NCBI GenBank assembly: GCA_013334865.1
Contig: JAAXWS010000001.1
Coordinates: 155,830 to 219,829, forward strand
DNA length: 64,000 bases
From: Chlorobiaceae bacterium
GTDB taxonomy: Bacteria; Bacteroidota; Chlorobiia; Chlorobiales; Chlorobiaceae
Direction of reading: 5' to 3'
Shown here: piece after piece, positions 7,721-62,058 of the stretch
Layout of the letters: every line of letters begins with the position of its first letter
Position numbering within the stretch: position 1 is the first letter of the stretch
Position numbers and translations under genes: made by a program
Notes under the pieces: model-generated
What the model was told of the DNA's origin: nothing
Databases searched by the model: none
What the model saw: only the letters and a program-made list of their open reading frames with translations

Positions 7721-8020
7721 TCATTCGTAATCCACCAGCCTGCGCTCTGATGCCGCATCGCCGATGAACGGCTTCATGGCTTCGTGTTCGGGATGAGACT
7801 GGTAGCCCTCCAAAGCATTCCTGTCGACAAACTCAGAATAAAGGACGACATCCGCAGAACTGCCGGTCCGGCTGAAATCGATGCCGACTTCGATCGAGAC
7901 CAGGCCGGAGATCCTGCTCCGGAGGCCTTCGAGCTTCTCCTTGATGAGGCGGGCGTTGACCTCGGCGGTGTTTCCGTGGGCACTCTCCTTGAGGCGCCAC
8001 ATGACGATATGCTTGACCAT
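7721..8020 (-). CDS. Dabb (stress-responsive alpha/beta barrel) family protein
   Basis: The 99-residue protein begins MVKHIVMWRLKESAHG, typical of small dimeric alpha/beta ferredoxin-like barrels of the Dabb family. It continues with a helix rich in Lys and Leu, VSIEVGIDFSRTGSSADVVLYSEF, and YQSHPEHEAMKPFI. Members include stress proteins and enzymes of polyketide cyclisation; the reaction here is unknown. I start at the ATG at 8018-8020. The longer open frame would encode HHSSLIIHH from the adjacent 7-base repeats, which is not credible as protein. Both ends of the gene are bounded by such repeats. Confidence 0.85.
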   Translation of the reverse strand: MVKHIVMWRLKESAHGNTAEVNARLIKEKLEGLRSRISGLVSIEVGIDFSRTGSSADVVLYSEFVDRNALEGYQSHPEHEAMKPFIGDAASERRLVDYE

Positions 8021-45585: not shown

Positions 45586-48500
45586 TCAGCTCTTCCTGCC
45601 GTTGATCGTGAAGAGGAAGAGGCTGAAAAATCCCATCGTCCCAAAAAGGCCGAAATTAAACGAATCTTCCGATGAGTCGTTCGCGGTCGATTTCCCTAAA
45701 GCCGCATGGGTTCGCCGCTTGCCGGACTTGGAACCTCCGTCCGCAAGCGAGGTCCCACCGCCGGAAAGTGAAACTCCGCCCGAAAAAGAGGCATCATTTA
45801 CAAATGTGACTATTTCAGGACGACCGCTTGCCACAAGGGTACTTGCGGCCTGTTCAGTCAAACCGAAATCGAACGCTGATCCCTGCGTGGAGCTTGCCAC
45901 TGCCTGGATGACGGACCCTGCGTCCGGCCGTGTGCCTTTAGATGCAGGATTCAAGCCGGCCTTACCCGCGGATGTGCCGGATGTGCCCGTCTTTGCCGTA
46001 GCTGTGGACGTACTGCTATCCAGGGACTTGCCGCCGGACGCCGTGCTACCCGCCCCTGCCCCGGTGTTCTCATTGCTCGCGATGCCGTTTGAGGTCGTGT
46101 TGCTTCCCGTTGTCGTCGTGCTGCCCGTCTCGGTGCCGCCGGTCTGCGAACCGCTCTCGCTTGCGCCTGTTGCCACGGCAGAGGCTGTGCCGCTGTTGGC
46201 AAGGCTGCCCTCATTTTTTGTTAAACTGCCGGGATTGCCCTGATTGCTTGCCGCACTGACCGCGGAGGACTGTTTAGTCGTTGCCGGCGTCGTCATCACC
46301 CCCGCGATGTTCAGCGAACCGTTCTGGTACCGGATGTCGTAGTTCGACAGACCGCTTCCCGTGGCTCCACTCAGCGCATCGGCATAGGTGCCGGCACCAG
46401 TACCGCTTGCTAGGCCGTTGACACCCGTCACGCTGTCGCTGCCAAGCAGACCACTCGCCGTGTAGGTGTTGATCCGCGCCCCGCCGGTGTAGGTGCTCGT
46501 CGTCGTCGCACCGGTGATCGTCAGCGACGCCTTGTTTACTGTCAGCGAACCGTTCTGGTAGCTGATGTTGTAGTTGTTCGGATTGAACGTCCCTCCCGTA
46601 GCCTGGCTCGGTGTCAGGGCATAACTTCCGTCGGCATTGGCTCCTGCCAACCCGCCGCTATCCGTATCCGTGATCGTGACACTTCCTATCGTCTCCCCGT
46701 TTTGCAACGAGCTCAGTGTAAAAGCTGTCGATCCCGACCCATAGGTTTTCACTTCGCCATAGGTCTTGGCGTCATTTTTTGCTCTTATCGTCAGCGACGC
46801 TGGCTGGATCGCTGCCGACACCGTGCCACCGGTCAGCGTGTAGTTGCTGCTGCTCAAGCTCAGGCTGCTGCTGCTGAAACCCGTGTAGCTGTTCGCGTCC
46901 GCGCTCGACACCAAGGCGCTCCCCGAAACCGTCGGGCTCTCACCGCTGACCTGCCCGCTCAGCGTGAAGCCGCTTGAGAAGCTAGCGCTTCCGTCATAGG
47001 TCTTGCTTACCGTGAGGTTCAGCGGCCGCTGCGTGATCGCATAGTCCGCCGCCGTGTAGCTGATGCTGTAGTTGCCGTTGGACAGTGTGCCCTGGCCGAT
47101 ACCATAGCTCCCAACGTTCTCACCCGTGGCACGGTGCAGGGCGCCGCTGAAGCTGTCGCCGGACACCAACCCTCGGTCAGTCCCGTTCGACTCGATGGTG
47201 TAGGTCAGCCCGGCATCGCTGTTACCGTAGATCTTGCCCTGCCCGCTGGCCGCCGTGATCGTGATCGGCCGCTGCGTGATCGCATAGTCCGCCGCCGTGT
47301 AGCTGATGCTGTAGTTGCCGTTTGCAAGAGTGCCCTGGTCGATCCCATAGCTGCCCACGTTTTCTCCCGTGGCACGGTGCAAGGTTCCGCTGAAGCTGTC
47401 GCCAGACACCAACCCTCGGTCAGTCCCGTTCGACTCGATGGTGTAGGTCAGCCCGGCATCGCTGTTACCGTAGATCTTGCCCTGCCCGCTGGCCGCCGTG
47501 ATCGTGATCGGCCGCTGCGTGATCGTTGCCGACACCGTGCCACCGGTCAGCGTGTAGTTGCTGCTGCTCAAGCTCAGGCTGCTGCTGCTAAATCCCGTGT
47601 AGCTGCTCGCGTCCGCGCTCGACACCGAGGCGCTGCCCGAAACCTTCGGGCTCTCACCGCTAACCTGGCCGCTCAACGTGAATCCACTGCTGAAACCCGC
47701 GCTTCCGTCGTAGACCTTGCTTACCGTGAGGTTCAGCGGCTGCTGCTTGATTTGCAGCGAACCGTTCACATAGCTGATCGTGTAGTTCGTCAACCCGCTT
47801 CCCGTGGCCGAGGTGAGATTGTCGGTATAGGTCGCGACGGTCGTGCCGGTCGCCAGGCCGCTCACGCTGGTCACGCTGTCGCTGCCAAGCAGGCCCGTCG
47901 TCGTGTAGGTGTTGATCAGCGCTCCGCCGCTGTAGGTGCCCGTCGTCGTCGCACCGGTGATCGTCAGCGATCGCGGCTTGATTTGCAGCGAACCGTTCAC
48001 GTAGCTGATCGTGTAGTTCCCCAGACCGCTGCCCGTGGCTCCACTCAGCGTTTCGTTGTAAGTGCCGACGTTCGTGCCGGTCGCCAGGCCGCTCACGCTG
48101 GTCACGCTGTCGCTACCAAGCAGGCCCGTCGTCGTGTAGGTGTTGATCAGCGCTCCGCCGCTGTAGGTGCCCGTCGTCGTCGCACCGGTGATCGTCAGCG
48201 ATGCCGGCGTGATCGTCAGCGAGCCGTTCTGGTAGCTGATCGCGTAGTAGCTCGCATTCGCGCCGTTGACCGTGATGCCACTCAGCGAGTCTGTGTAGGT
48301 GCCGACGTTCGTGCCGGTCGCCTTGCCGCTGACGGAACCCGTCACACTGACGCCGCTCGAGCTATACGTGTACGTCGTGTCGTTGCTCAGGACCCCACCG
48401 GTGTAGGTGCTGGTCGTCGAGCCTCCCGTGATCCTCAGGATTACCGGCGTGACGTTTGTCCATTTACTCTGAGAGCTGATCGAGTAGTTCACCAGACCCC

Positions 48501-51500
48501 CTGCCCCGCTCACACTCGCGTCAACCAACGCACCCGAAGTGATGCTGCCGGTATTATAGCCTAACAGGCCGCCGACAAAGCTGCCTCCGCTCACGCTCCC
48601 GCCACTCACCGTACTTCCGGTGATGCTGCCTGCATTGTACCCCACCAGTCCACCGATATATGTACCACCGCCGCTCACGCTCACGCCACTCACCGTACTC
48701 CCGGTGATGCTGCCTGCATTGTACCCCACCAGTCCGCCAACAATGCCGCTGCCGCTCACGCTCCCGCCGCTTACCGTATTCCCGCTTATGGTGCCGGTAT
48801 TGTACCCCACCAGGCCGCCGACATAGTTGCCGCGCCCGGTCACGCTCATGCCACTCACCGTATTCCCGCTGATGCTTCCGCTGATATTGGACCCCACCAG
48901 ACCGCCGATTTGGGTGTTACCGGTCACACTCCCACCGCTTACCGTATTCCCGCTGATGCTGCCGCCGGTATTGTCCCCCACCAGACCGCCGACATTGTTG
49001 CTGCCGCCGCTCACGCTCACGCCGCTTACCGTATTCCCGCTGATGCTGCCGTAGGTATTGGACCCCACCAGGCCGCCGACATTGTTGCCGACGCCACCGC
49101 TCACACTCACACCACTCACCGTATTCCCGCTGATGCTTCCACCGGTACCGGAGCCTGTTCCATTGCTTGTTACATTGATCCCCACCAGGCCGCCGACATA
49201 GCTGCCTCCGCTCACACTCACGCCGCTTACCGTATTCCCGCTGATGCTGCCGCCGTAATTGTTCCCCACCATACCGCCGACATGGCTGCCGACGCCGCTC
49301 ACGCTCCCGCAGCTTACCGTATTCCCGCTGATACTGCCGTTATTCCACCCCACCAGACCGCCAAAATCGTTGCTGCTGCCGCCACTCACACTCACGCCGC
49401 TCACCGTATTCCCGCTGATGCTGCCGCTATTGCTCCCCGCCAGGCCGCCAACAGAGCCGCCGCCGCTCACACTCACGCCGCTTACCGTATTCCCGCTGAT
49501 GCTGCCGCCGGAAATGCGCCCCACCAGTCCGCCGACATTGCCGCCGCCGCTCACGCTCACGCCGCTTACCGTATTCCCGCTGATGTTAGCGGCAGTTCCG
49601 AGGCTTGTTCCATTGAGCCCCACCAGTCCGCCGACATAGTTGCCGCCGCCGTTCACACTCACGCCGCTTACCGTATTCCCGCTGATAGTGACGCCGCTGC
49701 CTGCATTGTACCCCACCAGTCCGCCGACATTGCTGCCGACGCCGCTCACGCTCCCGCCGCTTACCGTATTCCCGCTGATAGTGACGCCGTTGGCGGAATT
49801 GAACCCCACCAGACCGCCAATAGTGCCGCCGCTGCCGCTTACACTTACGCCGCTTACCGTATTGCCGCTGATGCTAGCGCCAGTGCCGTAATTGTTCCCC
49901 ACCAGTCCGCCGACAGTGCCGCCGCTGCCGCTCACGCTCCCGCTGCTTACCGTATTCCCGCTGATGCTTCCGCCGGTATTGTACCCCACCAGGCCGCCGA
50001 CAGTGTTGCTTCCGCTCACGCTCCCGCTGCTTACCGTATTCCCGCTGATGGTGCCGGCATTTCCCCCCACCAGGCCGCCGACATAGGAGTAGCCGCTCAT
50101 GCTCCCGCTACTTACCGTATTCCCGCTGATGGTGCCGGTATTGTGCCCAACCAGGCCGCCGACATAGGAGAAGAGTGCGCTGCCAATCACACTCACGCCG
50201 CTTACCGTATTCCCGCTGATGGTGCCGGTATTGTACCCAACCAGGCCGCCGATAACGTCATAGCTGTAAGTGTTTGCAATACTTCCGCCACTTAACGTAT
50301 TGCCGAAAATTCGGCCTGTCGATGTGTTTTGAGCCACCAGAGCACCGAAATTGTTATTCCAGCCGCCGATCACGCTGGGAGTGCGCAACACGACGTCTCG
50401 AATGGTTCCGGAGTTGACGCCGAAGAGACCAAACGTCAGCTTCAGATTGCTGATCGTATTGCCAAGCCCTTCGAAAATGCCCGTGAACGGAGATGCGTAG
50501 CCGATCGAGGAGAAGCCCAGATTGGTGTTCCATGTCGATGTCCCCGAGGCATCGAAGCTGCTGCCGAGGGCGTAGTTGCCGGCGAGGTTGCCGTTCATGC
50601 CCTGCAAATCGGTTTTCGTAGTACTTCCGGAACTGCCGAGGCTCGTGATGACGGTGTAGGTTATGAGTGTGCCGTCCGAACCCAGCCTGGTGCTGAAATT
50701 GGTTCCTGCCTGCAGACTGACCGGGGCATTGACGTTGTAGGTCGCCGTATTGCCCGCAGCCACTGCGCCCTGGCCGTATAGAAGCGCCAGCGTCCCGCTG
50801 CTTCCACTCGCTGAAATGGACTGGTTGATGTTGATGTTGCGATAGGCATTGAGCGTCAGCGTGTTGTTTTCGCTCCAGCTCACCGGGTCGTTGACGTTGA
50901 TGTCGCCGTTACCGCTTGCCGATGTATAAAGATTTGCTGCGCTATCGGTTCCTGCCGCGGTCTGAATGGTCACGCTGCTGGAGTTCAGCGCACTGCCCAG
51001 GCCCGTGCCGGTGATATTGCCACCGCTGGCGGCAATGGTGAAGTCGTAGGGGTCAATCAGCCAACGGCCGCCCTGCCCGCCGGTGGCTGCGGTAGTGATG
51101 CTGGCGCTGCCGGTGATATTGACCGCACGCCCGGATGTTTCGATAAATCCGCCGTCGCCGCCGTCGGGGGCGCTGGCGTCGAGGGTGCCGGAAACCGTGG
51201 TCTGGCCGTTGTCCATGTCGGAGAGCAGCAGGATGCGGCCGGCCCTGTTTTGCATGGTGCGGGCCTCTATGACGCCGCTGTTGCTGGTGGTAGCCATTTT
51301 CAGCGCACCGGCCGCCCTGGAGGTCATCACCACCGCCCCGCCATCGGCCTTGATGAGCCCTTTGTTCTCCACGAGGGCGTCGACGGCCCCCTTGTCGACC
51401 GTGTAACTGAGCAGCCCGTCTCCCGTGAAGTCGAGCGACACCTGGTTGCCTGCGGCGAGGAGCACGCCGCCGCCGTTGGCGGTCAGGCTTCCTTCGTTGG

Positions 51501-52116
51501 TGACTTTTGGCGCCATGAGGGCCACGACTCCGCCGTTCGAGGCGTTGATGCTCCCCTGGTTGATGACATATCCGGCAATGCCGTCGTTGGTGAACTTGTA
51601 TTTCCCGGCCAGGAAGTCGCTGTCGAGCATGTTCAGCGACGAGGCGACGAGGCTGCCGACATTGACCTGTGCCGTCTTACCGAAAATGATGCCGGATGGA
51701 TTGATCAGAAAGAGCTGGCCATTGGCTGAAAGCGATCCGAGGATCTGGCTCGGGTTCTGGTCGGTGATGCGGTTGAGCGCCGATGCGGTGGCGCCCGGCT
51801 GGTTGAAACGGACTGTGGCGTCCTGGCCGATATTGAAAGTGATCCAGTTGGCGATCAGCTGCTGGCTCGACTGGTTCACCGTCATCCGGCTGCCTATGGC
51901 GGTGATGCTGCCGCTGCCGGCAGTTATCTGCCCGCCGGTGGGCAAGGCTCCTGAATCAAGCGCATGGGCTGATTTACCCGATCCGAGCAGCATGGTCGCG
52001 ACGGCCAGGCTGAGCAGGGGCGACGAGGGTACTTTGCCGTTGCCTTTGACCCTTTCGGAGACAACGACCCAGCGCTCTTTCGTCTTGGACCAGATGAGGT
52101 TATAGACCTTGTTCAT
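45586..52116 (-). CDS. TpsA-type giant secreted adhesin (filamentous-haemagglutinin-like)
   Basis: The 2176-residue exoprotein starts with an extended signal peptide region (MNKVYNLIWSKTKERWVVVSE) and a hydrophobic signal ending near SAHA. The TPS secretion domain follows (about 50-330), with the NPSGIIFG motif. About 20 GLUG-type repeats (VGGLVGYNTGTISGNTVSG) cover residues about 610-1205. YDG/MBG-type immunoglobulin-like units cover about 1225-1900, and a Ser/Thr/Gly-rich stretch follows. A C-terminal hydrophobic stretch (GLFGTMGFFSLFLFTING) ends in RKS. It should be exported by TpsB (52205-53932) and bind surfaces or cells. The repeats are rich in Ser and Gly, good sites for O-glycosylation. 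The reading frame is intact. Confidence 0.93.
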   Translation of the reverse strand: MNKVYNLIWSKTKERWVVVSERVKGNGKVPSSPLLSLAVATMLLGSGKSAHALDSGALPTGGQITAGSGSITAIGSRMTVNQSSQQLIANWITFNIGQDATVRFNQPGATASALNRITDQNPSQILGSLSANGQLFLINPSGIIFGKTAQVNVGSLVASSLNMLDSDFLAGKYKFTNDGIAGYVINQGSINASNGGVVALMAPKVTNEGSLTANGGGVLLAAGNQVSLDFTGDGLLSYTVDKGAVDALVENKGLIKADGGAVVMTSRAAGALKMATTSNSGVIEARTMQNRAGRILLLSDMDNGQTTVSGTLDASAPDGGDGGFIETSGRAVNITGSASITTAATGGQGGRWLIDPYDFTIAASGGNITGTGLGSALNSSSVTIQTAAGTDSAANLYTSASGNGDINVNDPVSWSENNTLTLNAYRNININQSISASGSSGTLALLYGQGAVAAGNTATYNVNAPVSLQAGTNFSTRLGSDGTLITYTVITSLGSSGSTTKTDLQGMNGNLAGNYALGSSFDASGTSTWNTNLGFSSIGYASPFTGIFEGLGNTISNLKLTFGLFGVNSGTIRDVVLRTPSVIGGWNNNFGALVAQNTSTGRIFGNTLSGGSIANTYSYDVIGGLVGYNTGTISGNTVSGVSVIGSALFSYVGGLVGHNTGTISGNTVSSGSMSGYSYVGGLVGGNAGTISGNTVSSGSVSGSNTVGGLVGYNTGGSISGNTVSSGSVSGSGGTVGGLVGNNYGTGASISGNTVSGVSVSGSGGTIGGLVGFNSANGVTISGNTVSGGSVSGVGSNVGGLVGYNAGSGVTISGNTVSGVSVNGGGNYVGGLVGLNGTSLGTAANISGNTVSGVSVSGGGNVGGLVGRISGGSISGNTVSGVSVSGGGSVGGLAGSNSGSISGNTVSGVSVSGGSSNDFGGLVGWNNGSISGNTVSCGSVSGVGSHVGGMVGNNYGGSISGNTVSGVSVSGGSYVGGLVGINVTSNGTGSGTGGSISGNTVSGVSVSGGVGNNVGGLVGSNTYGSISGNTVSGVSVSGGSNNVGGLVGDNTGGSISGNTVSGGSVTGNTQIGGLVGSNISGSISGNTVSGMSVTGRGNYVGGLVGYNTGTISGNTVSGGSVSGSGIVGGLVGYNAGSITGSTVSGVSVSGGGTYIGGLVGYNAGSITGSTVSGGSVSGGSFVGGLLGYNTGSITSGALVDASVSGAGGLVNYSISSQSKWTNVTPVILRITGGSTTSTYTGGVLSNDTTYTYSSSGVSVTGSVSGKATGTNVGTYTDSLSGITVNGANASYYAISYQNGSLTITPASLTITGATTTGTYSGGALINTYTTTGLLGSDSVTSVSGLATGTNVGTYNETLSGATGSGLGNYTISYVNGSLQIKPRSLTITGATTTGTYSGGALINTYTTTGLLGSDSVTSVSGLATGTTVATYTDNLTSATGSGLTNYTISYVNGSLQIKQQPLNLTVSKVYDGSAGFSSGFTLSGQVSGESPKVSGSASVSSADASSYTGFSSSSLSLSSSNYTLTGGTVSATITQRPITITAASGQGKIYGNSDAGLTYTIESNGTDRGLVSGDSFSGTLHRATGENVGSYGIDQGTLANGNYSISYTAADYAITQRPITITAASGQGKIYGNSDAGLTYTIESNGTDRGLVSGDSFSGALHRATGENVGSYGIGQGTLSNGNYSISYTAADYAITQRPLNLTVSKTYDGSASFSSGFTLSGQVSGESPTVSGSALVSSADANSYTGFSSSSLSLSSSNYTLTGGTVSAAIQPASLTIRAKNDAKTYGEVKTYGSGSTAFTLSSLQNGETIGSVTITDTDSGGLAGANADGSYALTPSQATGGTFNPNNYNISYQNGSLTVNKASLTITGATTTSTYTGGARINTYTASGLLGSDSVTGVNGLASGTGAGTYADALSGATGSGLSNYDIRYQNGSLNIAGVMTTPATTKQSSAVSAASNQGNPGSLTKNEGSLANSGTASAVATGASESGSQTGGTETGSTTTTGSNTTSNGIASNENTGAGAGSTASGGKSLDSSTSTATAKTGTSGTSAGKAGLNPASKGTRPDAGSVIQAVASSTQGSAFDFGLTEQAASTLVASGRPEIVTFVNDASFSGGVSLSGGGTSLADGGSKSGKRRTHAALGKSTANDSSEDSFNFGLFGTMGFFSLFLFTINGRKS
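47023..47508 (-). repeat. Two tandem 243-bp units in the adhesin gene
   Basis: The copies 47023-47265 and 47266-47508 encode 81 residues each and differ at few positions. They encode the MBG-type unit with ITITAASGQGKIYGNSDAGL. The near-identity indicates recent duplication, and copy-number variation between strains is expected. Confidence 0.85.
48500..50280 (-). repeat. Array of about 20 GLUG repeats in the adhesin gene
   Basis: Each unit encodes VGGLVG-Y/x-N followed by ISGNTVSG and SVSG, 25-39 residues long. The plus strand shows the string ACCGTATTCCCGCTGATG again and again. I counted 20 units, beginning near 50250 (unit 1) and ending near 48520 (unit 20). Units 18-20 have drifted (ITGSTVSG and ITSGALV). 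The units are imperfect at the DNA level, so the array is not a CRISPR. Confidence 0.9.
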
Positions 52117-52204
52117 TCGGGTAGTTCAGCTTATGGAAAAAAGTGCTCATGGCTTGCCGTTACGATGACGGGGTTAGGACGGTGCGTCGTCGGGAGTTCC
52201 CGTT

Positions 52205-53932
52205 TCAGAAATACACGACGCCTTGCAGCCAGAATCGGCTTTTGTCGGCCCGGCCGTCGGTGTTGTTGCCGTCGGTGTTGCGCCCGGCGTTTTCGCCGAT
52301 GGCGTGGGCCCAGCTTGCCCGCACGCTGGCCCGGCTCGAAAACCAGCAGTTCAGGCCGATGCCTGCGCCTTGCAGCCAATAGTCGTTGCTATCGGTGGCG
52401 TTGACGACGTCGCCGCTGTACCGGTCGTGGTTGAGCGTGATATGGCCGGCATCGTAAAATCCGCTGAGCTGGATTCGTCCCCATGACGGCGGCAACGGCA
52501 GCGAGTAGCGCAGTTCGGCGCTGAGCAGCTGGCCGTCGTCCCCTGAGGCTTCGCCTACGGGGTAGGCGCGGACTCCGCCGGGGCCGCCGAGCGACATTTT
52601 TTCGCTGGAATCAAGGTTGCCGCCTGCGAACTGGGCGGTACCGGCAATCGTGAGGCTGAGCTGTTCGGTGATGCGCTGGAGACGCGACAGGCCGGCGTTG
52701 TATCGGGCATAGCCGCCTTCGGCGCCGGTCAGGCTTATGTCGGCGATGGATTCATGCAGCCTGCCGGTGGTGACGCCCAGGCTGAAGGTACTATAGCCGC
52801 CTCCGTTGAACCGGTCGTAACGGTCTCCGTTGATGCTGATCGTGGCACTGTTGACCTGTCGGTTGCGGATGTCGATATCCGATTTGCTGTCGACCAGCGA
52901 CCGGTACCCGTAAGCGGCATTTACCGTCAGGTTGGCGGTGCTGCTGCGCACCACCGGGTAACTCACCCCTGCGTCGATGATATTGCCGTTGCCTTTGTAT
53001 TGCAGGTCGGCCAATTCCTGGCCGAGTTCATAGCGCATGCCGGTATACGCCAGGTTTGCCCGTATGCCGTCAAAGCCGATGGGGAAGCTGTATCCGACGC
53101 GCCCTTGGGCAAGACCGGAGGATTCGGTCAGCAGCATGGAGATCTGATCGCCACGATGCAGCGGGTCGTTCACGGAGAGTGTCGCGGTTGCCCGCCATGT
53201 CCCTGTATAGCGATTGCCCTGATTGTCGCCCGTGACCGTGCCGGAAATGACCGGCCCTTCGGCGACATCCACTTCGAGCCCGCTGGCGCCGGCTTGCTTG
53301 CCGGAGACGATCGAGGCTTTTGCGGAGACGCCCGGCAAATCGTTCATGAGCAGAATGGCGCGCCTGAGTTTGCCTTCATTGATCGGTTGACCGGGGTTCA
53401 GGGCCTTGCTGGCGATTCCGCGGAGGAGATCTTCGGAGATCCTGGCAGTCCGGTCACGCCTGACGGTGACCTTGCCATCGCTTTTCACCTGGGTGACAGC
53501 AATATGTATGATTCCGGCGGTGATGTCCTGCGACGGGAGGTAGGCCTTCGCCTGATTGAATCCCTTTGCCCGGAAGGCGGCGGTAACGGTGTCGGCAAGA
53601 CGCTGCAGCTCCCCGAACGAGAGGCTTTTGCCTATGGCCGGGGCAACCATGGCCTTGAGTTCCGCTTCGCTCGCAAGGCCCTCGTAGCCGCTGAACGTGA
53701 AGCCCCTGACACCCACCCTGGTGCCGTCATCGGCGTTGGACGGCGCACCCGTTGCCTCTTCGGGAGGAGCCACGGACTCTCTTGCCCGGGGCATGGCCTG
53801 CTGCTGGTCGCGCAGTATACTGCCCGCATCCGGGACTGCGGCGGCTGAACCCGTAGCGGCAGGAAGGGTGAGCGAGAGAAGCAGCAGGAACCCAGTAAGG
53901 GGAAACGCTTTGATCTTGGGAATATGGGGCAC
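52205..53932 (-). CDS. TpsB outer-membrane secretion pore (ShlB/FhaC family)
   Basis: The 575-residue Omp85-family protein exports the TpsA partner. It has a signal peptide (about 1-32), a periplasmic linker, two POTRA-like domains (about 70-235), and a 16-stranded barrel. The POTRA start has RVGVRGFTFSGYEGLASEAELK. The L6 loop signature is VRAYPVGEASGDDG (VRGY-like), and the C-terminal strand ends WLQGVVYF, an aromatic end typical of barrel proteins. It lies 88 bases upstream of tpsA on the same strand. Both partners needed for two-partner secretion are therefore complete. Substrate specificity is inferred from adjacency. Confidence 0.95.
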   Translation of the reverse strand: MPHIPKIKAFPLTGFLLLLSLTLPAATGSAAAVPDAGSILRDQQQAMPRARESVAPPEEATGAPSNADDGTRVGVRGFTFSGYEGLASEAELKAMVAPAIGKSLSFGELQRLADTVTAAFRAKGFNQAKAYLPSQDITAGIIHIAVTQVKSDGKVTVRRDRTARISEDLLRGIASKALNPGQPINEGKLRRAILLMNDLPGVSAKASIVSGKQAGASGLEVDVAEGPVISGTVTGDNQGNRYTGTWRATATLSVNDPLHRGDQISMLLTESSGLAQGRVGYSFPIGFDGIRANLAYTGMRYELGQELADLQYKGNGNIIDAGVSYPVVRSSTANLTVNAAYGYRSLVDSKSDIDIRNRQVNSATISINGDRYDRFNGGGYSTFSLGVTTGRLHESIADISLTGAEGGYARYNAGLSRLQRITEQLSLTIAGTAQFAGGNLDSSEKMSLGGPGGVRAYPVGEASGDDGQLLSAELRYSLPLPPSWGRIQLSGFYDAGHITLNHDRYSGDVVNATDSNDYWLQGAGIGLNCWFSSRASVRASWAHAIGENAGRNTDGNNTDGRADKSRFWLQGVVYF

Positions 53933-54437: not shown

Positions 54438-54983
54438 TCAATGTTTCTTTTCGCCTTTTGCGTAGGTTATATACAGGGCTCCGGAAATAAGGATAATCCC
54501 GATACACAGGTATAATAGATCCAAGGCCGAACCATAATTATTACTCATGGACCTTTCCAGAAAAGTCACGATCAATATCATCAGGACGACTTTCCCGATA
54601 TTTCCCTTGAGATCATCAAGGGTTTGAATGTTCAGCAAATTCGGACGCGAATCGGACGTTCGGCTAGCGGGATCTATCTTGCTGATGAACAACTCATAAA
54701 TCCCCATGCTGAAAATGAGCAGCACGGTGGCAAAAAGGTAATTGTCGACCGAATTGATCAATAACGGGACGATTCGCTCCACATGATCCGTCTCGACCTT
54801 GCCCAGGTTGTTCAGTTGCTCAAGAAAAATGCGCGTCCCATCCACAATCAGCAGTGTCCCCTTTATGTACATGATGACAGACGCGACCATGGCGCCCAGC
54901 ACCGGAGTCAGGACGATAAATCGCATGTTGAACAACAGCGACTCAAAAGTGTTTTCAATAAAGCCGTCAAATTTCCTGGCCAT
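54438..54983 (-). CDS. YqhA/UPF0114-family membrane protein
   Basis: The 181-residue protein matches the UPF0114 pattern. Three or four hydrophobic helices are present (about residues 20-42, 80-100, 128-145 and 155-175). The segment INSVDNYLFATVLLIFSMGIYELFISKID is close to [27 protein letters not shown] of E. coli YqhA. LDDLKGNIGKVVLMILIVTFLERSM matches the following region. Function unknown. It lies 65 bases downstream of the channel-like gene, and may form an operon with it. Confidence 0.85.
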   Translation of the reverse strand: MARKFDGFIENTFESLLFNMRFIVLTPVLGAMVASVIMYIKGTLLIVDGTRIFLEQLNNLGKVETDHVERIVPLLINSVDNYLFATVLLIFSMGIYELFISKIDPASRTSDSRPNLLNIQTLDDLKGNIGKVVLMILIVTFLERSMSNNYGSALDLLYLCIGIILISGALYITYAKGEKKH

Positions 54984-55048: not shown

Positions 55049-57223
55049 TCAATAAAAAGTGATCAGTGTGATCATAAAGAAGATGCAACTGTAGAGCGGC
55101 CAGTATAAGTATCTGAAAAAAATGCCGTGCTTGTGCCTGAAAAGGAATCCTTTTTGTTTCGTAATGAAGATCACCAGTATCACGTTAACCAGCATGGCGA
55201 AATAGATCATAAAATATATTTTCTCGACATAGAGGATGCCTGACGGAGCCAGCTGCGTCCGGACGCTCTGCATCGATATCACCAGGAAGATCGTAAAGGC
55301 CGATCCGATGGCGGTCGCCTCCTTGGCGTCGAAGTTGAACGACTCCCGTGTATCGAGGTCGTTGGTGATCATATAGACGCCGGAATACAGGATTATCAGA
55401 ATGATGAAGATCGGGATCATCACGGAGATGAAAATGGTGATCCAGTCTCGCTCAAGGGTGATTTTCAGGACGAGGTCCTTCATCGTGGCAGCGCCGACGA
55501 GTTCACGGCGCCCATAATCGATCGATTGTGACTGTTCTGAAAAATTGAAGTAGGTATTGATATGATTCCAGCCGGATATGGAGAAATCCGCAGGCACCAT
55601 GGATTTGGCTGAAGGGGCGGTGATTTTGTATGACGCAATATCAGGGATGAGGACTATGGATTCGAACTTCTTCGGTTGACGCATCCTGATCTGGACGGTG
55701 ATCCTGTCGAACGGGTACATGGAGCTCCTGAAATCCTGCTGAAGCCGTGTCGCAAAATTCCATCCGACGACCTTATAACCATTTTCCTCTACGCGGTAGA
55801 TCTCGTACATCTTGGTTTCGATCTGATCGGGAAACAGCACCCCCAGGGCACGAGCGGGATCCGCATCGGAAGGAATCCTCTGCCACAGCGTCCCGTAGAT
55901 GTCTGCCGTTCCATTCGGCTCTGAAACAGAAACAGAATTGACCATGATCCCGGTCTGGATAAACTGAGGGGAGGGGGATTGGGTAAGCTGTGCCTTGCCG
56001 GCCTGATCTTTCTTGTACTGCTCTACCTGGGATGTGGTGGTGATACAATTATCCTCATAGGGGGACACGGTTCCCCTGGTGATCTGGAGCGCCCACATAC
56101 ACATCAGGCCTGATATGAACACCCCGCTCGAGAACCAGGAGAAGAAGCTTAACCTCCTGGGGAAATTAATAGCCGGTGCTGCGGCAAACAGAACGACATA
56201 AAGCCCGGTGATCAAGAGTAAGGCCATCAGGACAGACAACAACAGCATCAGCTGCTGTTTCAGGTACGTGTCCGACAGGGAAAGGTCATCGATCAGCAGC
56301 GACACTCCCGCATACCATCCTGTTGAGGCCACAGGTTCAAAACGGATAACGCTCTTCTGCTTGTTGATCAGGTCTTTCTCACAGATGCTGACCGCGGTTT
56401 TAGCCGTGAATGCGTTCAGGAGGTTATTGCAGTTATCCGACCTATATGTTTTTTTTGCATAATTAAGCAGGTCGAAATTGTTGACGATCAGGTTTTTATC
56501 CGGATGGTCCAGCGTCATGCCGTCACCGTCAACAAGAAATCTGTAGCCGTACTCTCCCAACGCCTTATTATCCGTCGACTTCTGAAAATCATCGGCAGAG
56601 AGCCTCGCCGAAACCACCCCGACCGGCACGCTTTTGCCGGAAGGTGAAATCGCGTAGATCCTCTGTTCATATGCCAGAATCATAGCCTTTTCGCTCTTGT
56701 GCCAGGAGGCTTTCTGCCATCCGTCCTTAAGAGCGGCCGAATCGGCCTGCGGTGATCCGGGCTTGGCATCGGACTTCCCGGGGACGCTCACGTCCATCAT
56801 GCGCGTGATGCGGGCGAAGCCCTGGGGCGACAGGCCCCTGCATACCGCCATGGAATCGGATTTGGAGAAAAATCTGACTGAATAACGGCCCGGAACACCG
56901 GAGGGATTAGTGCTGAGGATATCGATCGCTCTTTTCTCATCCACACCCTTCCCGCCTATGGCAAGGGCAAGCTCCTTGACCGTTCGCTCGATGCCACCGG
57001 CCATTTTGTCGATTTTTCGAGCGTCTGCCATGGCGCCATTGCGCGCCTTTGCATTGATCTCATTATTGTTTGAATAGAGCCGGGTGGCCAGGCTGGCTGA
57101 CAAATAAATCAGCACGGCCAGCAGCACTCCCATCAGCAGGAGAACGACTGATTTTACTTTGTTGTAGAGGGCCTTGTTTTCCTTCGGCAAGGTCGTCCAT
57201 TGCTCTATTTGGTCTAACAACAT
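55049..57223 (-). CDS. Cache sensor domain fused to a pentameric ligand-gated ion channel-like module
   Basis: This 724-residue membrane protein has TM1 (about 24-46), an extracytoplasmic Cache-like domain (about 50-315), two helices (about 324-347 and 356-382), an extracytoplasmic beta domain (about 420-592), and four helices at the C-terminus (594-618, 636-655, 665-688, 700-722). The beta domain shows TGIMVNSVSV at its start, YPFD at 503-506 in the place of the Cys-loop/Pro-loop motif, and SGW near 550. The last four helices have the order, spacing and MIP proline in M1 of GLIC-like channels. The two halves together suggest a ligand sensor that drives a channel. Nothing is known about ion selectivity. 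Confidence 0.6.
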   Translation of the reverse strand: MLLDQIEQWTTLPKENKALYNKVKSVVLLLMGVLLAVLIYLSASLATRLYSNNNEINAKARNGAMADARKIDKMAGGIERTVKELALAIGGKGVDEKRAIDILSTNPSGVPGRYSVRFFSKSDSMAVCRGLSPQGFARITRMMDVSVPGKSDAKPGSPQADSAALKDGWQKASWHKSEKAMILAYEQRIYAISPSGKSVPVGVVSARLSADDFQKSTDNKALGEYGYRFLVDGDGMTLDHPDKNLIVNNFDLLNYAKKTYRSDNCNNLLNAFTAKTAVSICEKDLINKQKSVIRFEPVASTGWYAGVSLLIDDLSLSDTYLKQQLMLLLSVLMALLLITGLYVVLFAAAPAINFPRRLSFFSWFSSGVFISGLMCMWALQITRGTVSPYEDNCITTTSQVEQYKKDQAGKAQLTQSPSPQFIQTGIMVNSVSVSEPNGTADIYGTLWQRIPSDADPARALGVLFPDQIETKMYEIYRVEENGYKVVGWNFATRLQQDFRSSMYPFDRITVQIRMRQPKKFESIVLIPDIASYKITAPSAKSMVPADFSISGWNHINTYFNFSEQSQSIDYGRRELVGAATMKDLVLKITLERDWITIFISVMIPIFIILIILYSGVYMITNDLDTRESFNFDAKEATAIGSAFTIFLVISMQSVRTQLAPSGILYVEKIYFMIYFAMLVNVILVIFITKQKGFLFRHKHGIFFRYLYWPLYSCIFFMITLITFY

Positions 57224-57965: not shown

Positions 57966-58403
57966 CTATTGATACTTCTCGATGGGTTCGCGTCTATCCG
58001 GAGTTGACTCCGAGGCCCTGGCATTCAATTTCGAGATCATATAGGTGATCGCGTTTTTTATCTCACCATCGCTAAGCTCCGGGTTCCCGCCTCTTGGAGG
58101 CATCGTTCCCTTTTTGCCTTCATATCCCTGAGATGCCTTTTCGAATAAAACTCCCGTCCCCGCTGCAGTGAGAGGTTCCCAGGCACTCCTGTCTCCGGGT
58201 CTGGGCGCGCCACCGACCCCGCTGTCGTGGCATCCGGAACAATTGGATTCGTAAACGCTTTGCCCGACTGATTTTTCGACCACAGTGGAATCGGCTGCCC
58301 TCGACTCATGCGGCTCACTGCGCCCGGGAGGTTGTTCGGCGCTACATCCTCCGAGGAGAACAAGAGCGAAAAACACCAGAGGCATGAGGCACTTCAAAAT
58401 CAA
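57966..58403 (-). CDS. Monoheme c-type cytochrome lipoprotein
   Basis: The 145-residue protein has a signal peptide with lipobox LLGGC (about 16-20), a low-complexity linker of about 25 residues, and one heme-binding motif CSGCH (residues 55-59). A distal Met is in GTMPPRGG. The layout is that of class I cytochromes c of the c-555 type. It probably hands electrons between periplasmic donors and the reaction centre or a quinol oxidase-like partner. Its tail, EPIEKYQ, is polar. The gene is a single unit. Confidence 0.87.
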   Translation of the reverse strand: MILKCLMPLVFFALVLLGGCSAEQPPGRSEPHESRAADSTVVEKSVGQSVYESNCSGCHDSGVGGAPRPGDRSAWEPLTAAGTGVLFEKASQGYEGKKGTMPPRGGNPELSDGEIKNAITYMISKLNARASESTPDRREPIEKYQ

Positions 58404-58671: not shown

Positions 58672-59415
58672 TCAGTCTACAGCGATATCGGCACTGAAGC
58701 TATAGCCGACAGTATGGGCCGTCTTGATGGGATCGAGCAACTGATAGGACACCATTTTGCTCCGCAGGCGATTGATGAGGGATTGCAGCGAATGGTTGCC
58801 GGATTCGTTGTTGATATAGCCGAGTTTCTCCAGCAGTTCGGGACGCGAGACAACTTTCTGCGGGGTAGAAACGAGCAGCACCATAAAATCAAGCTCTTTG
58901 GTGGTGAGTATGATGCTGTCGCCCTGCGGGGTCTGCAGTGTCCATTGCTTGCTGATGAGTCGCCATGTTCCGGTTGACTGCTGCTGCGGCTTTTCGATGG
59001 TGAACTGCCTCGGGGCCGAGGATTCGGCAAGGCGGCGGAGAAGCGAGGCGATGGCGGCGGAGAGCTGGCGAAAATCGACCGGCTTGACCAGGTAGACGTC
59101 AGCACCGGCCTGTTGACCGGCAAGCTGGTCCTCGATGCTAGCAAGTGCCGTAAACATGATGATACGCATGTCGGTGTTCTTCCGGACGTATTCGGTCAGG
59201 ACCATGCCGCTCTGGTCAGGGAGGCCAACGTCCAGTACGGCCACCGCATACGGCTCGGCGAACATGCACTGATAGAACTCGTGAGCCGAGCTTACCCCGG
59301 TGACCTCATATCCCTCAAGCGTCAGGTATTTGACGACGCTGTTACGAAGGGGTTGGTCATCTTCGACGATGATGACCCTTGCGCCTGCTTTTACAGCTTG
59401 ATTCTCCTGTGCCAT
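58672..59415 (-). CDS. OmpR-family response regulator
   Basis: The 247-residue protein has an N-terminal receiver (VIIVEDDQPLRNSVVKYL, phospho-Asp in AVLDVGLPDQSG, FTAL, and the Lys in VYLVKPVDF) and a C-terminal winged helix (SIILTTKELDFMVLLVSTPQKVVSRPELLEKLGY and NRLRSKMV). It binds DNA as a dimer when phosphorylated. The start at MAQENQAV (59413-59415) is preferred; a longer frame runs 27 codons upstream into the kinase gene. The kinase stop lies 4 bases upstream, so the two form a two-component pair. The targets are unknown. Confidence 0.93.
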   Translation of the reverse strand: MAQENQAVKAGARVIIVEDDQPLRNSVVKYLTLEGYEVTGVSSAHEFYQCMFAEPYAVAVLDVGLPDQSGMVLTEYVRKNTDMRIIMFTALASIEDQLAGQQAGADVYLVKPVDFRQLSAAIASLLRRLAESSAPRQFTIEKPQQQSTGTWRLISKQWTLQTPQGDSIILTTKELDFMVLLVSTPQKVVSRPELLEKLGYINNESGNHSLQSLINRLRSKMVSYQLLDPIKTAHTVGYSFSADIAVD

Positions 59416-59419
59416 AAGC

Positions 59420-61528
59420 TTATCTGAGTTGTTCTTCCGGATGAGCTGTCTGCTGATTGCCTGACGGCTGCCGCTCCAGGAGTTCGCCATCGTCATCTGC
59501 GATCGGAAGGCGAACGACCACCTCGATCCGTGATCCCTTTGCGAAAAGGCTTACCGTGCCGTCATGCTGCTCGATGATCTGGCGGACAAGCCACAGTCCT
59601 ATGCCGGCTCCGCTGGTTTCATGGCTGTTGCCACCTCGGGTGTATTTGTCAAACAGAGCATCCCCCGCCCCGAGCAAGAACGGCTCTGACTGGTTTTGTA
59701 TGGTTGTGACCACTGCCCCCTGTTCGATGCGGGTTTCGACCTCGACGGGAGAATCGGGCGGGGAGTATTTCCGGGCGTTGTCGAGCAGATTGAAAATCGC
59801 CGTCTTGAGGTTCTGCCAATCGCAGACAACGTATCCATGGTCGGCGGCCCCGGTATAGATGAAGGTTCGTTGGGGCCACATCGCCTGCATGGTTTCAACC
59901 TGCTGGAAGAGGAAGGGCCCGAATAGCTCGCGCGTCAGTTCCTCATGCAGGCCTGGCTCAAGGAGGCGGCTGCGCTCCAGGGAGACCTCCATGACTTCGA
60001 CCAGCCGGTCTACGGCATGATGCATGGCGGAGAGCTCCTCCTCGTATCCGCCCTGTTTTCCGGATTCCTGGAGGCCGATGATGTCAAGGCTGCCTCTCAC
60101 CACGGCCAGCGGCGTCCGGTATTCGTGCGACAGCATGGAAAAGAACCGCTGCTTCTGCTCGAGCGCGATTCTCTCGGAGGCGAGCGCCACTTCGAGGCGG
60201 GTCTTGCTGTTGCGAAGCTCCAGCGTCATCTCGTTGGCCAGCGCCCGCGCCTTCTGCTCGGTCCCTCTGGAGGCCTCCAGCGCCTGGCAGGCGCTTTCGG
60301 CCGCAGCCTGTTCAGAGATCCGGAGGCGCTCGGAAAGCGCTATGGAGATCAGGACCATATGCAGCAGATTGGCCGGCTGGACGGTATTCACGCCCCACAG
60401 GGAACCCAGCGGCAACAGCCCCATAAGGGTCAGCAGCATGTGGAAATACCCGATCGTGCTGATGGCGAAGGCGACAAGGATGAAGAGCCCGATCCGCGGC
60501 ACCCGGGTACGCATCCTGATGCTCAGCACCATCTGTACCACCACAAGGATCAAGGTGCCGAGAAAGGCGATCGGCGCCATAACCGGATAGAAGCCCAACG
60601 GCACCGCCGCCATGGTCAGCACCCCCACCAGCGACAGGAAGCGCATATATCGAAGGCTCCATGAACCGGCGACAGAAGCAAAGAGTTTTCGTGAGAACTC
60701 GCTGTAGATCAGGATATTCGCCCCGATCCCCCCGTAGATGAGATAATCGGAAACGACATGCACTATCGATGGAAACAGGAGGGTCATATCACCCTCGGCG
60801 GCGAAGTTGTAAACAATGCCGCCTATGATGAAAACGGAAAAGTAGAGGAACAGCGATTCGCGGATAGAAAAGTAAAAGACCAGGTTGATCAGCAGGACGG
60901 CAAAAGCGATGCCGAGAAAGGCCGACTGGATGATGATGTGCAGGTTGGTATAGTCACGCAGTTCCTCCGCGGTATGCATCCTTCCCGCAAGGCTGATGGA
61001 GCTGTTCGAGAAAACCCTGGCGTAGATGACCACCGGCCCGGATGCCGGCAGATCGACCGGGACGACAAAGTCCGGATGGAGTACGGGACGCTGAAGGACC
61101 GGGACATGGTTGCCCAGGAGCACCCTGCGGTAGGAGGAGGGCAACCCTGGATCCTTGCCGGGCATCAGGATATAGAGGGTCAGCTCATTGACGTAATTCG
61201 GCTTCAGCCTGAGCCACCCCCGTTCCGGGAATGCGGCATTTCGCTCGACGGTGAACCGGACCCAGCAGGCCTCCCGCTTGTAGCCGTTATTGAGGTTACC
61301 GTCGATATGACCGAAACGGCCTGCCTCCGAGGCCTTCAGGGCTTCGGGAAATCCCAGGTGGATCGATGGGTCTTTCAGGAGGTCCATATGCCCTGCAAGG
61401 TCATAACCACTGCGCTCGCCAAGACGCAAAGGAGTGGCGCTCGCCCGTGTGGAAAAGAGCAGGACAAGCATGAAGAACAGGCTGCCGCGAAGTGCGCGAA
61501 GAAAAGAACCAGAGGACACGGCATTCAT
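59420..61528 (-). CDS. 7TMR-DISM sensor histidine kinase
   Basis: The 702-residue sensor has a signal peptide (about 1-28), an extracellular 7TMR-DISM sensing domain (about 30-190), seven transmembrane helices (about 200-400), a coiled linker, HisKA with the phospho-His in LSHEYRTPLAVVRG, and HATPase with NLLDNARKY (N-box), and GAGIGLWLVRQII (G-box). Such receptors detect carbohydrate or other extracellular ligands. I start at MNAVSSGSFLRAL (ATG 61526-61528), because it gives a proper signal peptide. A longer frame extends upstream with no such features. It phosphorylates the regulator encoded 4 bases downstream. Confidence 0.92.
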   Translation of the reverse strand: MNAVSSGSFLRALRGSLFFMLVLLFSTRASATPLRLGERSGYDLAGHMDLLKDPSIHLGFPEALKASEAGRFGHIDGNLNNGYKREACWVRFTVERNAAFPERGWLRLKPNYVNELTLYILMPGKDPGLPSSYRRVLLGNHVPVLQRPVLHPDFVVPVDLPASGPVVIYARVFSNSSISLAGRMHTAEELRDYTNLHIIIQSAFLGIAFAVLLINLVFYFSIRESLFLYFSVFIIGGIVYNFAAEGDMTLLFPSIVHVVSDYLIYGGIGANILIYSEFSRKLFASVAGSWSLRYMRFLSLVGVLTMAAVPLGFYPVMAPIAFLGTLILVVVQMVLSIRMRTRVPRIGLFILVAFAISTIGYFHMLLTLMGLLPLGSLWGVNTVQPANLLHMVLISIALSERLRISEQAAAESACQALEASRGTEQKARALANEMTLELRNSKTRLEVALASERIALEQKQRFFSMLSHEYRTPLAVVRGSLDIIGLQESGKQGGYEEELSAMHHAVDRLVEVMEVSLERSRLLEPGLHEELTRELFGPFLFQQVETMQAMWPQRTFIYTGAADHGYVVCDWQNLKTAIFNLLDNARKYSPPDSPVEVETRIEQGAVVTTIQNQSEPFLLGAGDALFDKYTRGGNSHETSGAGIGLWLVRQIIEQHDGTVSLFAKGSRIEVVVRLPIADDDGELLERQPSGNQQTAHPEEQLR

Positions 61529-62058
61529 ATGAGTACGCACTTTGGCTTGGGGTCGTGGTCCGCATAAACGATTGTTAAATATATCAACTACGCCGCCCCC
61601 AAAAAAACCGTAATTATGATTACGAAAAAGCATTCGGGACAGGAGCACCGCAAACAAAAAACTCCCGGTTTCCAGGAAGACGGCGAATGCGCACCGAGGC
61701 GCTATATGCCTTCACAAATAAGACTTACGATTATGAAAAGGCCATTCTGCCCCCCATATTATTAATACCTCCAACTTTTCTCCAGCATCAAACTGCAGCC
61801 ATTTTTCAGAAAAACGGGAAAACCTGAACTGTTGACCATTATCAAGCCCCTGCCGTGCCTGCGGGAGTTTTTGCTTGCGGTTCTTCCCTGTTGAAACCCA
61901 CTCCCCTGCCGATCACCTCAGAAACCGCAATAAACACTCCCGGCAACAGCCGGGAACACCGGCTAACCTGACCTAATCGATGTTATGCAACACGTCGGCG
62001 CAGGAAGTAATGTTTGAGGATGTCCCCGAGTTTTGTTTAGCCTTGAGTTTCGCTGCGC
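61529..62058. other. Intergenic region with a hairpin and a 16-bp repeat copy
   Basis: This stretch of 530 bases separates the kinase gene and the autotransporter-like gene. It contains copy 1 of the repeat AGCACCGCAAACAAAA (61644-61659) and a hairpin TCCCGGC/GCCGGGA (61938-61944 and 61949-61955) without a T-tract. Otherwise I see no gene. Confidence 0.5.
61644..61659 (+). repeat. 16-bp direct repeat, copy 1
   Basis: AGCACCGCAAACAAAA is identical to 63843-63858, about 2.2 kb away. The copies flank the autotransporter-like gene on both sides. Confidence 0.7.

Follow-up and report, generated by a model that had tools for sequence, protein, structure and literature searches.

Bacterial pentameric ligand-gated ion channels (pLGICs) serve as structural models for nerve receptors, although, to our knowledge, the signals and cellular roles of most of them are not known. 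Fusions of prokaryotic pLGICs (ART-LGICs) to Cache and MCP-N domains were described by Tasneem et al. in 2005 (PMC549065) from Methanosarcina, Cytophaga and Microbulbifer and were proposed to act in chemoreception; in the accessible part of that paper, the extra domains are said to sit between the signal peptide and the ligand-binding domain (LBD). In this study we analysed a gene of related design in a 64,000-nucleotide stretch of a Chlorobiaceae genome (this whole stretch is called the window below). Its product, a diverged pLGIC of the Pro-loop superfamily carrying an N-terminal dCache domain, is probably a chemically gated inner-membrane channel, and the state of the dCache domain would set how often the pore is open.

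Frame and predicted layout of the fusion protein

The gene lies on the minus strand at 55049..57223 as a frame of 724 codons with an ATG start, and stops interrupt the same register on the plus strand. It is present as a single copy in the window's genome. All the motifs quoted by the earlier note were located in this translation, namely TGIMVNSVSV (residues 424-433), YPFDRITVQIRM (residues 503-514), SGW (residues 550-552) and MIPIFIIL (residues 602-609), in which the proline is P604. The frame is not a chance one, because it has 17 full-length relatives and because long frames matching its C-terminal half with profile A4, a hidden Markov model (HMM) made from 12 family C-termini, turn up in 11 of the 296 genomes surveyed from the phylum, its own among them, all belonging to the window's family (f1). 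The gene and the predicted parts of its product, including the transmembrane (TM) helices, are as follows.

55049..57223, minus strand: Cache-pLGIC fusion gene, 724 amino acids, ATG start, stop included (frame, relatives, model)
57095..57151, minus strand: TM1, residues 25-43 (hydropathy; in the model, the start of a long helix, 17-89, running into the Cache domain)
56273..57076, minus strand: dCache ectodomain, residues 50-317 (Pfam dCache_1, family profile against 3lib, model)
56186..56272, minus strand: TM2, residues 318-346 (model, hydropathy)
56075..56164, minus strand: TM3, residues 354-383 (model, hydropathy; predicted return to the periplasm)
55448..55981, minus strand: pLGIC-type beta-sandwich ectodomain, residues 415-592 (model, structural and sequence comparisons)
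55706..55717, minus strand: Pro-loop YPFD, residues 503-506 (P504 in 110 of 110 alignment rows, D506 in 109)
55448..55450, minus strand: pre-M1 arginine R592 (R in 109 of 110 rows, K in one)
55055..55444, minus strand: four-helix transmembrane domain M1-M4, residues 594-723 (model; inside the structural match to GLIC)
55250..55327, minus strand: M2, predicted pore-lining helix, residues 633-658 (model; register to GLIC uncertain)

Structure prediction was of the monomer only; an earlier fold from 18 close relatives was not usable (predicted local distance difference test, pLDDT, 59). The confident monomer model places helices at 17-89, 318-346 and 354-383, eight strands inside residues 420-592, and C-terminal helices at 594-620, 633-658, 665-689 and 701-723, which is the same order of Cache-like ectodomain, two helices, second ectodomain and four helices that the earlier note had read from the sequence. 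The proline in M1 and the end of the chain after M4, which it had also pointed out, agree with P604 in 107 of 110 rows, with the predicted helices at 594-723 and with hydropathy. Among the 108 rows longer than 640 residues, hydropathy detects TM2 in 108, TM3 in 105 and TM1 in 94, the window protein being one of the three in which TM3 falls below the threshold. Averaged over the family, basic residues outnumber acidic ones in the four predicted cytoplasmic segments, and acidic residues outnumber basic ones at the four predicted periplasmic edges, a distribution that agrees with a seven-helix topology; the M1-M2 loop of the window protein itself (2 basic, 4 acidic) departs from this rule.

Two residues of the channel helices are invariant in all 110 rows and may form a salt bridge: R655, towards the end of M2, and E667, where M3 begins. 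The column of residue 651 in M2, four residues before the invariant arginine, holds histidine in 95 of 97 non-chlorobial rows and isoleucine, methionine or serine in all 13 chlorobial rows. An assignment of ion selectivity from the acid near M2 -2' (E635) was considered and dropped, because the register of M2 is uncertain and this column varies across the family, with E in 11 and R in two of the 13 chlorobial rows and with D 27, T 24 and G 13 among the 97 non-chlorobial rows.

Homology of the two halves

The search against the Neur_chan families that the earlier note had proposed gave no match to the fusion protein or to any other of the 18 chlorobial members, and no Neur_chan domain was found among the precomputed domains of the best 120 of 297 clusters matching P0021, a distant relative described below. 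When PF02931 (Neur_chan_LBD) was run across 148 genomes of the phylum, it matched one genome and missed the window's gene. The NCBIfam model LGIC_1 gave 13.4 bits (E 0.038) with the full window protein and 19 bits (E 7.7e-4) with its C-terminal half, the cut-off being 500, and it matched the window's protein alone among the 18 members and among eight C-termini. Likewise, searches of Pfam, NCBIfam and the PDB with the window protein or close relatives returned no pLGIC call above cut-off, and a C-terminal profile from chlorobial sequences alone (A2) found no pLGIC in the PDB. Because the library models gave no such call, the pLGIC reading required further tests. The failure of the Pfam and NCBIfam models tried to name these proteins suggests that pLGIC surveys built on them likely miss this clade.

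The further tests used simple pLGICs, collected from related genomes with PF02931 at E <= 0.001 (22 loci, 19 kept after a filter, of which 11 exceed the PF02931 cut-off). Six simple pLGIC-like proteins were scanned, and all six have LGIC_1 or TIGR00860 matches below cut-off, one of them passing PF02931. Using hhalign, the family C-terminus aligned with 13 of the simple pLGICs at 98.7% (E 3.7e-16) and with the other six, of a more canonical type, at 96.2%; the family ectodomain alone reached 98.3%, the transmembrane part M1-M4 alone gave nothing (0.2-0.3%), and the controls stayed at 0.2% for a reversed alignment and 0.1% for the Cache half. Profile A4 matches 18 of the 19 simple pLGICs, with no match among 114 shuffled or reversed copies; it misses L021, and the other five of the canonical type match weakly (E 1e-4 to 6e-3). 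Against the PDB, A4 found GLIC at E 0.0013, the best 60 of 77 rows being GLIC or GLIC chimeras, and the structural match to GLIC covers residues 416-724 with 16% identity in the alignment. The protein thus combines an immunoglobulin-like beta-sandwich, a Pro-loop of the form [FY]-P-x-D, a basic residue before M1, four transmembrane helices with a proline in M1, a C-terminus directly after M4 and detectable sequence homology; a basic residue ending the ectodomain before M1 is among the features named for pLGICs in the accessible text of PMC549065. With structural and sequence tests in agreement and the controls clean, the claim that the second ectodomain and the four helices form a pLGIC module is upheld, and it is nearly certain that the channel half is homologous to pLGICs and shares their fold.

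The N-terminal Cache ectodomain is recognized once the family is considered together. Pfam dCache_1 matches residues 200-307 of the window protein at E 4.3e-4 (20.3 bits, below the cut-off of 45), whereas the full-length family profile (A3) finds the dCache structure 3lib at E 7.3e-23 over profile positions 35-317, following a membrane helix, as well as PctA at E 3.5e-11 and, as a weak match (E 3e-4), the alpha2delta subunit of animal calcium channels; the model agrees. The core motif of the amino-acid sensors of the dCache_1AA type is YxxxxRxWYxxA. This signature was rejected for the family: it occurs in 0 of 95 non-chlorobial rows in the region searched (residues 101-330) and was not seen on reading the window protein. 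Since this was the sole signature tested, the amine or carboxylate ligand suggested by the earlier note is left unsupported. Another motif of the Cache region, W[YFH]..(2-9)W.[ED]P, is found in 60 of the 95 non-chlorobial rows, and four chlorobial rows inspected have neither motif.

Distribution, mechanism and alternative readings

Besides the window's own entry (P0002), 17 relatives align over 96-100% of the length at 42-61% identity. Twelve of 13 close-relative loci are titled Chlorobiaceae or Chlorobium; the 13th (L012:3-965) is a fragment 65% identical to residues 341-576 whose frame stops early and whose record is titled Chloroflexi, perhaps a mis-binned chlorobial contig. The C-terminal profile of eight chlorobial sequences led to one distant protein, P0021 (26% identity, E 3.3e-54), whose alignment to the window protein begins at residue 200 and runs through to the C-terminus, spanning the second Cache half, both helices, the ectodomain and M1-M4. 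The C-terminal part of P0021 in turn matched 297 clusters at E <= 0.01. A Cache or PDC annotation is carried by 101 of the best 120 of these; of the remaining 19, 16 have fewer than 500 amino acids, and some of these short relatives lie on contigs that could not hold the full gene. The named sources among the listed relatives include Alphaproteobacteria, Rhodospirillaceae, Nitrosomonas, Nitrospirota, Deltaproteobacteria and one metagenome-assembled genome labelled Nanoarchaeia, and the named entries are 'hypothetical' or 'cache domain' proteins; further members come from a Vibrio megaplasmid and, lacking the Cache part, from an Acaryochloris plasmid. Within the genus the distribution is patchy, the window's own being the only one of the 17 genomes listed that has the gene. 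In the survey of 296 genomes, A4 also picked out simple pLGIC-like frames in nine genomes, of which three lie outside f1.

In a quick tree of 44 rows, a branch of length 2.1 (Shimodaira-Hasegawa-like approximate likelihood-ratio test, SH-aLRT, 100) stands between 26 Cache-type rows with the Cache-less Acaryochloris protein on one side and 17 simple pLGICs on the other. The five Cache rows from Chlorobiaceae group as a single sub-clade. Several long branches, among them those flagged for the Vibrio row and for L059, leave the inner order unsure. The Acaryochloris protein (WP_012166950.1, L043:3998-5458, annotated as hypothetical) has one N-terminal helix and, by eye, a C-terminal tail of about 100 residues past M4. 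It is nested within the Cache rows with moderate support (85-89), so loss of the Cache domain there is the simpler reading. For the origin of the architecture, one reading that fits is that a whole TM1-Cache-TM2 module was set before a pLGIC, whose signal peptide then became TM3.

As for the mechanism, seven membrane crossings per subunit are predicted, the chain running through TM1, the periplasmic Cache domain, TM2, a short cytoplasmic turn, TM3, the periplasmic beta-sandwich and M1-M4, and by homology five subunits would surround a pore lined by M2. A small periplasmic ligand would occupy the Cache domain, and the state of this domain would alter the open probability of the pore, either by direct contact between the ectodomains or by the TM2-TM3 hairpin packed on the channel helices. 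We consider it fairly likely that the Cache domain controls the channel. That the signal passes through the hairpin is a tentative idea; equally tentative is its fuller form as a chemoreceptor-style module that brings its own membrane return, in which a Cache ligand would shift TM2 and the hairpins around M1-M4, in a pentamer of 35 helices, would gate the pore. If this were true, the hairpin drive would give pLGICs a second gating input, separate from the classic ligand site at the subunit interfaces, and this input would be widespread among bacteria.

The alternative that survives best, though we hold it to be rather improbable, is that the channel works as an ordinary pLGIC, with the ligand bound by its own ectodomain at the subunit interfaces and with the Cache domain acting mainly as an anchor or a weak modulator. 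Of the 12 matching genomes in this bacterial family, six do contain simple pLGICs with no added domain, and the nested Acaryochloris protein belongs to the clade without a Cache domain. However, the Cache or PDC annotation of most of the listed relatives, together with the shortness of most of the remainder, and the maintained tryptophan-containing motif of the Cache region both speak against this reading. The six family genomes concerned (L057, L060, L061, L062, L063 and L065) carry the simple pLGIC-like protein as a second one, of 364-369 amino acids, that of L065 being cut short at 228; the two that were scanned (L057 and L060) show TIGR00860/LGIC_1 similarity.

Somewhat less probable still is a protein that has kept the pLGIC fold and lost conduction, its transmembrane bundle serving as a signalling or scaffolding element. 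In its favour, M1-M4 alone has no recognisable sequence similarity, and M2 is rich in large hydrophobic residues with an invariant arginine near its outer end. On the other hand, all four helices fall inside the GLIC structural match, the invariance of R655 and E667 may be a sign of a maintained interface, and in the modelled chain no cytoplasmic output domain, HAMP or signalling domain included, is seen that could carry another signal. We regard it as quite likely that the protein conducts ions.

A third alternative places the fusion protein in a local system together with a UPF0114 protein and two-partner secretion, for example in the control of exoprotein release. Two genes of this kind follow it on the same strand.

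54438..54983, minus strand: UPF0114 (YqhA-type) membrane protein, downstream, 65 bases after the channel gene (Pfam E 4.9e-29)
52205..53932, minus strand: TpsB-type outer-membrane secretion protein of the ShlB/FhaC family, downstream (Pfam)

TpsB lies downstream in 11 of 22 related loci (six of 12 taken as distinct) and UPF0114 in seven of 22 (four of 12), one locus (L003) offering 831 downstream bases only. However, neither gene is found within 8 kb at the divergent chlorobial loci L011, L013 and L014 or at L004, nor within 3.9 kb at L002; the neighbouring genes are different at the Vibrio and Acaryochloris loci, and synteny among close relatives accounts for the pattern. Because these divergent loci lack both genes, such a role is very unlikely. 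Finally, that the likeness to pLGICs is a chance resemblance of an unrelated beta-sandwich and four helices, as the missing Pfam Neur_chan match might suggest, was rejected as barely conceivable on the hhalign and A4 controls, structure and sequence being in agreement.

Other observations concern the surroundings of the gene. TpsB (ShlB/POTRA) forms a two-partner secretion pair at 45586-53932 with a 2176-residue TpsA-like exoprotein that has an ESPR signal, MBG_2 repeats and, by eye, many GLUG-like repeats. Upstream of the channel gene and on the same strand, a 7TMR-DISM histidine kinase and an OmpR-type response regulator occupy 58672-61657, and a small cytochrome c gene (57966-58403) lies between this pair and the channel gene. 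On the Vibrio megaplasmid (L044:687-4938), a gene for a solute-binding protein of family 3 (SBP_bac_3) heads an operon-like chain, followed by a membrane gene and then by the Cache-pLGIC gene, with successive overlaps of four bases; this record is nearly bare of annotation. In Chlorobium sp. N1 (L011:6973-7932), the frame of a 319-residue predicted membrane-anchored protein with no Pfam match stops at 7932, where it touches or overlaps the probable start of the channel frame.

Comparison with described systems

The hairpin architecture was not found described in the literature searched, which does not take in many subscription papers; a search for 'pLGIC' with 'Cache domain' returned nothing, related searches gave PMC549065 alone as on point, and the word Cache is absent from the accessible part of Jaiteh et al. 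(PMC4795631). The clade, a large one, joins a well-studied class of chemosensors to the pLGICs and thus offers a direct handle on what bacterial pLGICs sense, and the hairpin provides a testable alternative to gating by an interfacial ligand.

GLIC, the proton-gated channel of Gloeobacter, has about 317 residues in PDB constructs and neither an accessory domain nor extra helices. The simple pLGICs of Chlorobiaceae and Bacteroidota-type relatives, with their LGIC_1/TIGR00860 similarity, come nearest in sequence to the channel half among the proteins found, but they are single modules of about 310-370 residues without Cache or TM2-TM3 and lie across the long tree branch. DeCLIC (PMC9897478) is another pLGIC extended at its N-terminus by a large periplasmic domain, which affects gating; compared by description, its NTD1 and NTD2 are beta-rich, and no transmembrane hairpin is mentioned in the accessible part of that paper. 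The best 50 rows of the structural comparisons contained no DeCLIC entry, an absence that carries no weight in either direction. With dCache chemoreceptors and sensor kinases (PctA/PctB, 3lib) the fusion protein shares the N-terminal TM1, the long helix and the dCache domain, but its output is a channel module, with no HAMP or cytoplasmic signalling domain seen. The fusions of Tasneem et al., as far as the accessible text of their paper describes them, likewise have a Cache-type sensor N-terminal to the pLGIC ectodomain and four helices, and several ligand-binding domains per protein were proposed; in that layout no membrane helices stand between sensor and LBD, whereas the window's clade has TM2 (108 of 108 rows) and TM3 (105 of 108) there. 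Of the earlier note's claim that the N-terminal fusion and the two helices lie outside ordinary pLGICs, the conserved helices stand, but the fusion itself is not new, because Cache fusions were described in 2005 in the same paper (PMC549065). In summary, fusions of this kind have been known since 2005, and what differs here is the predicted membrane hairpin between the two halves.
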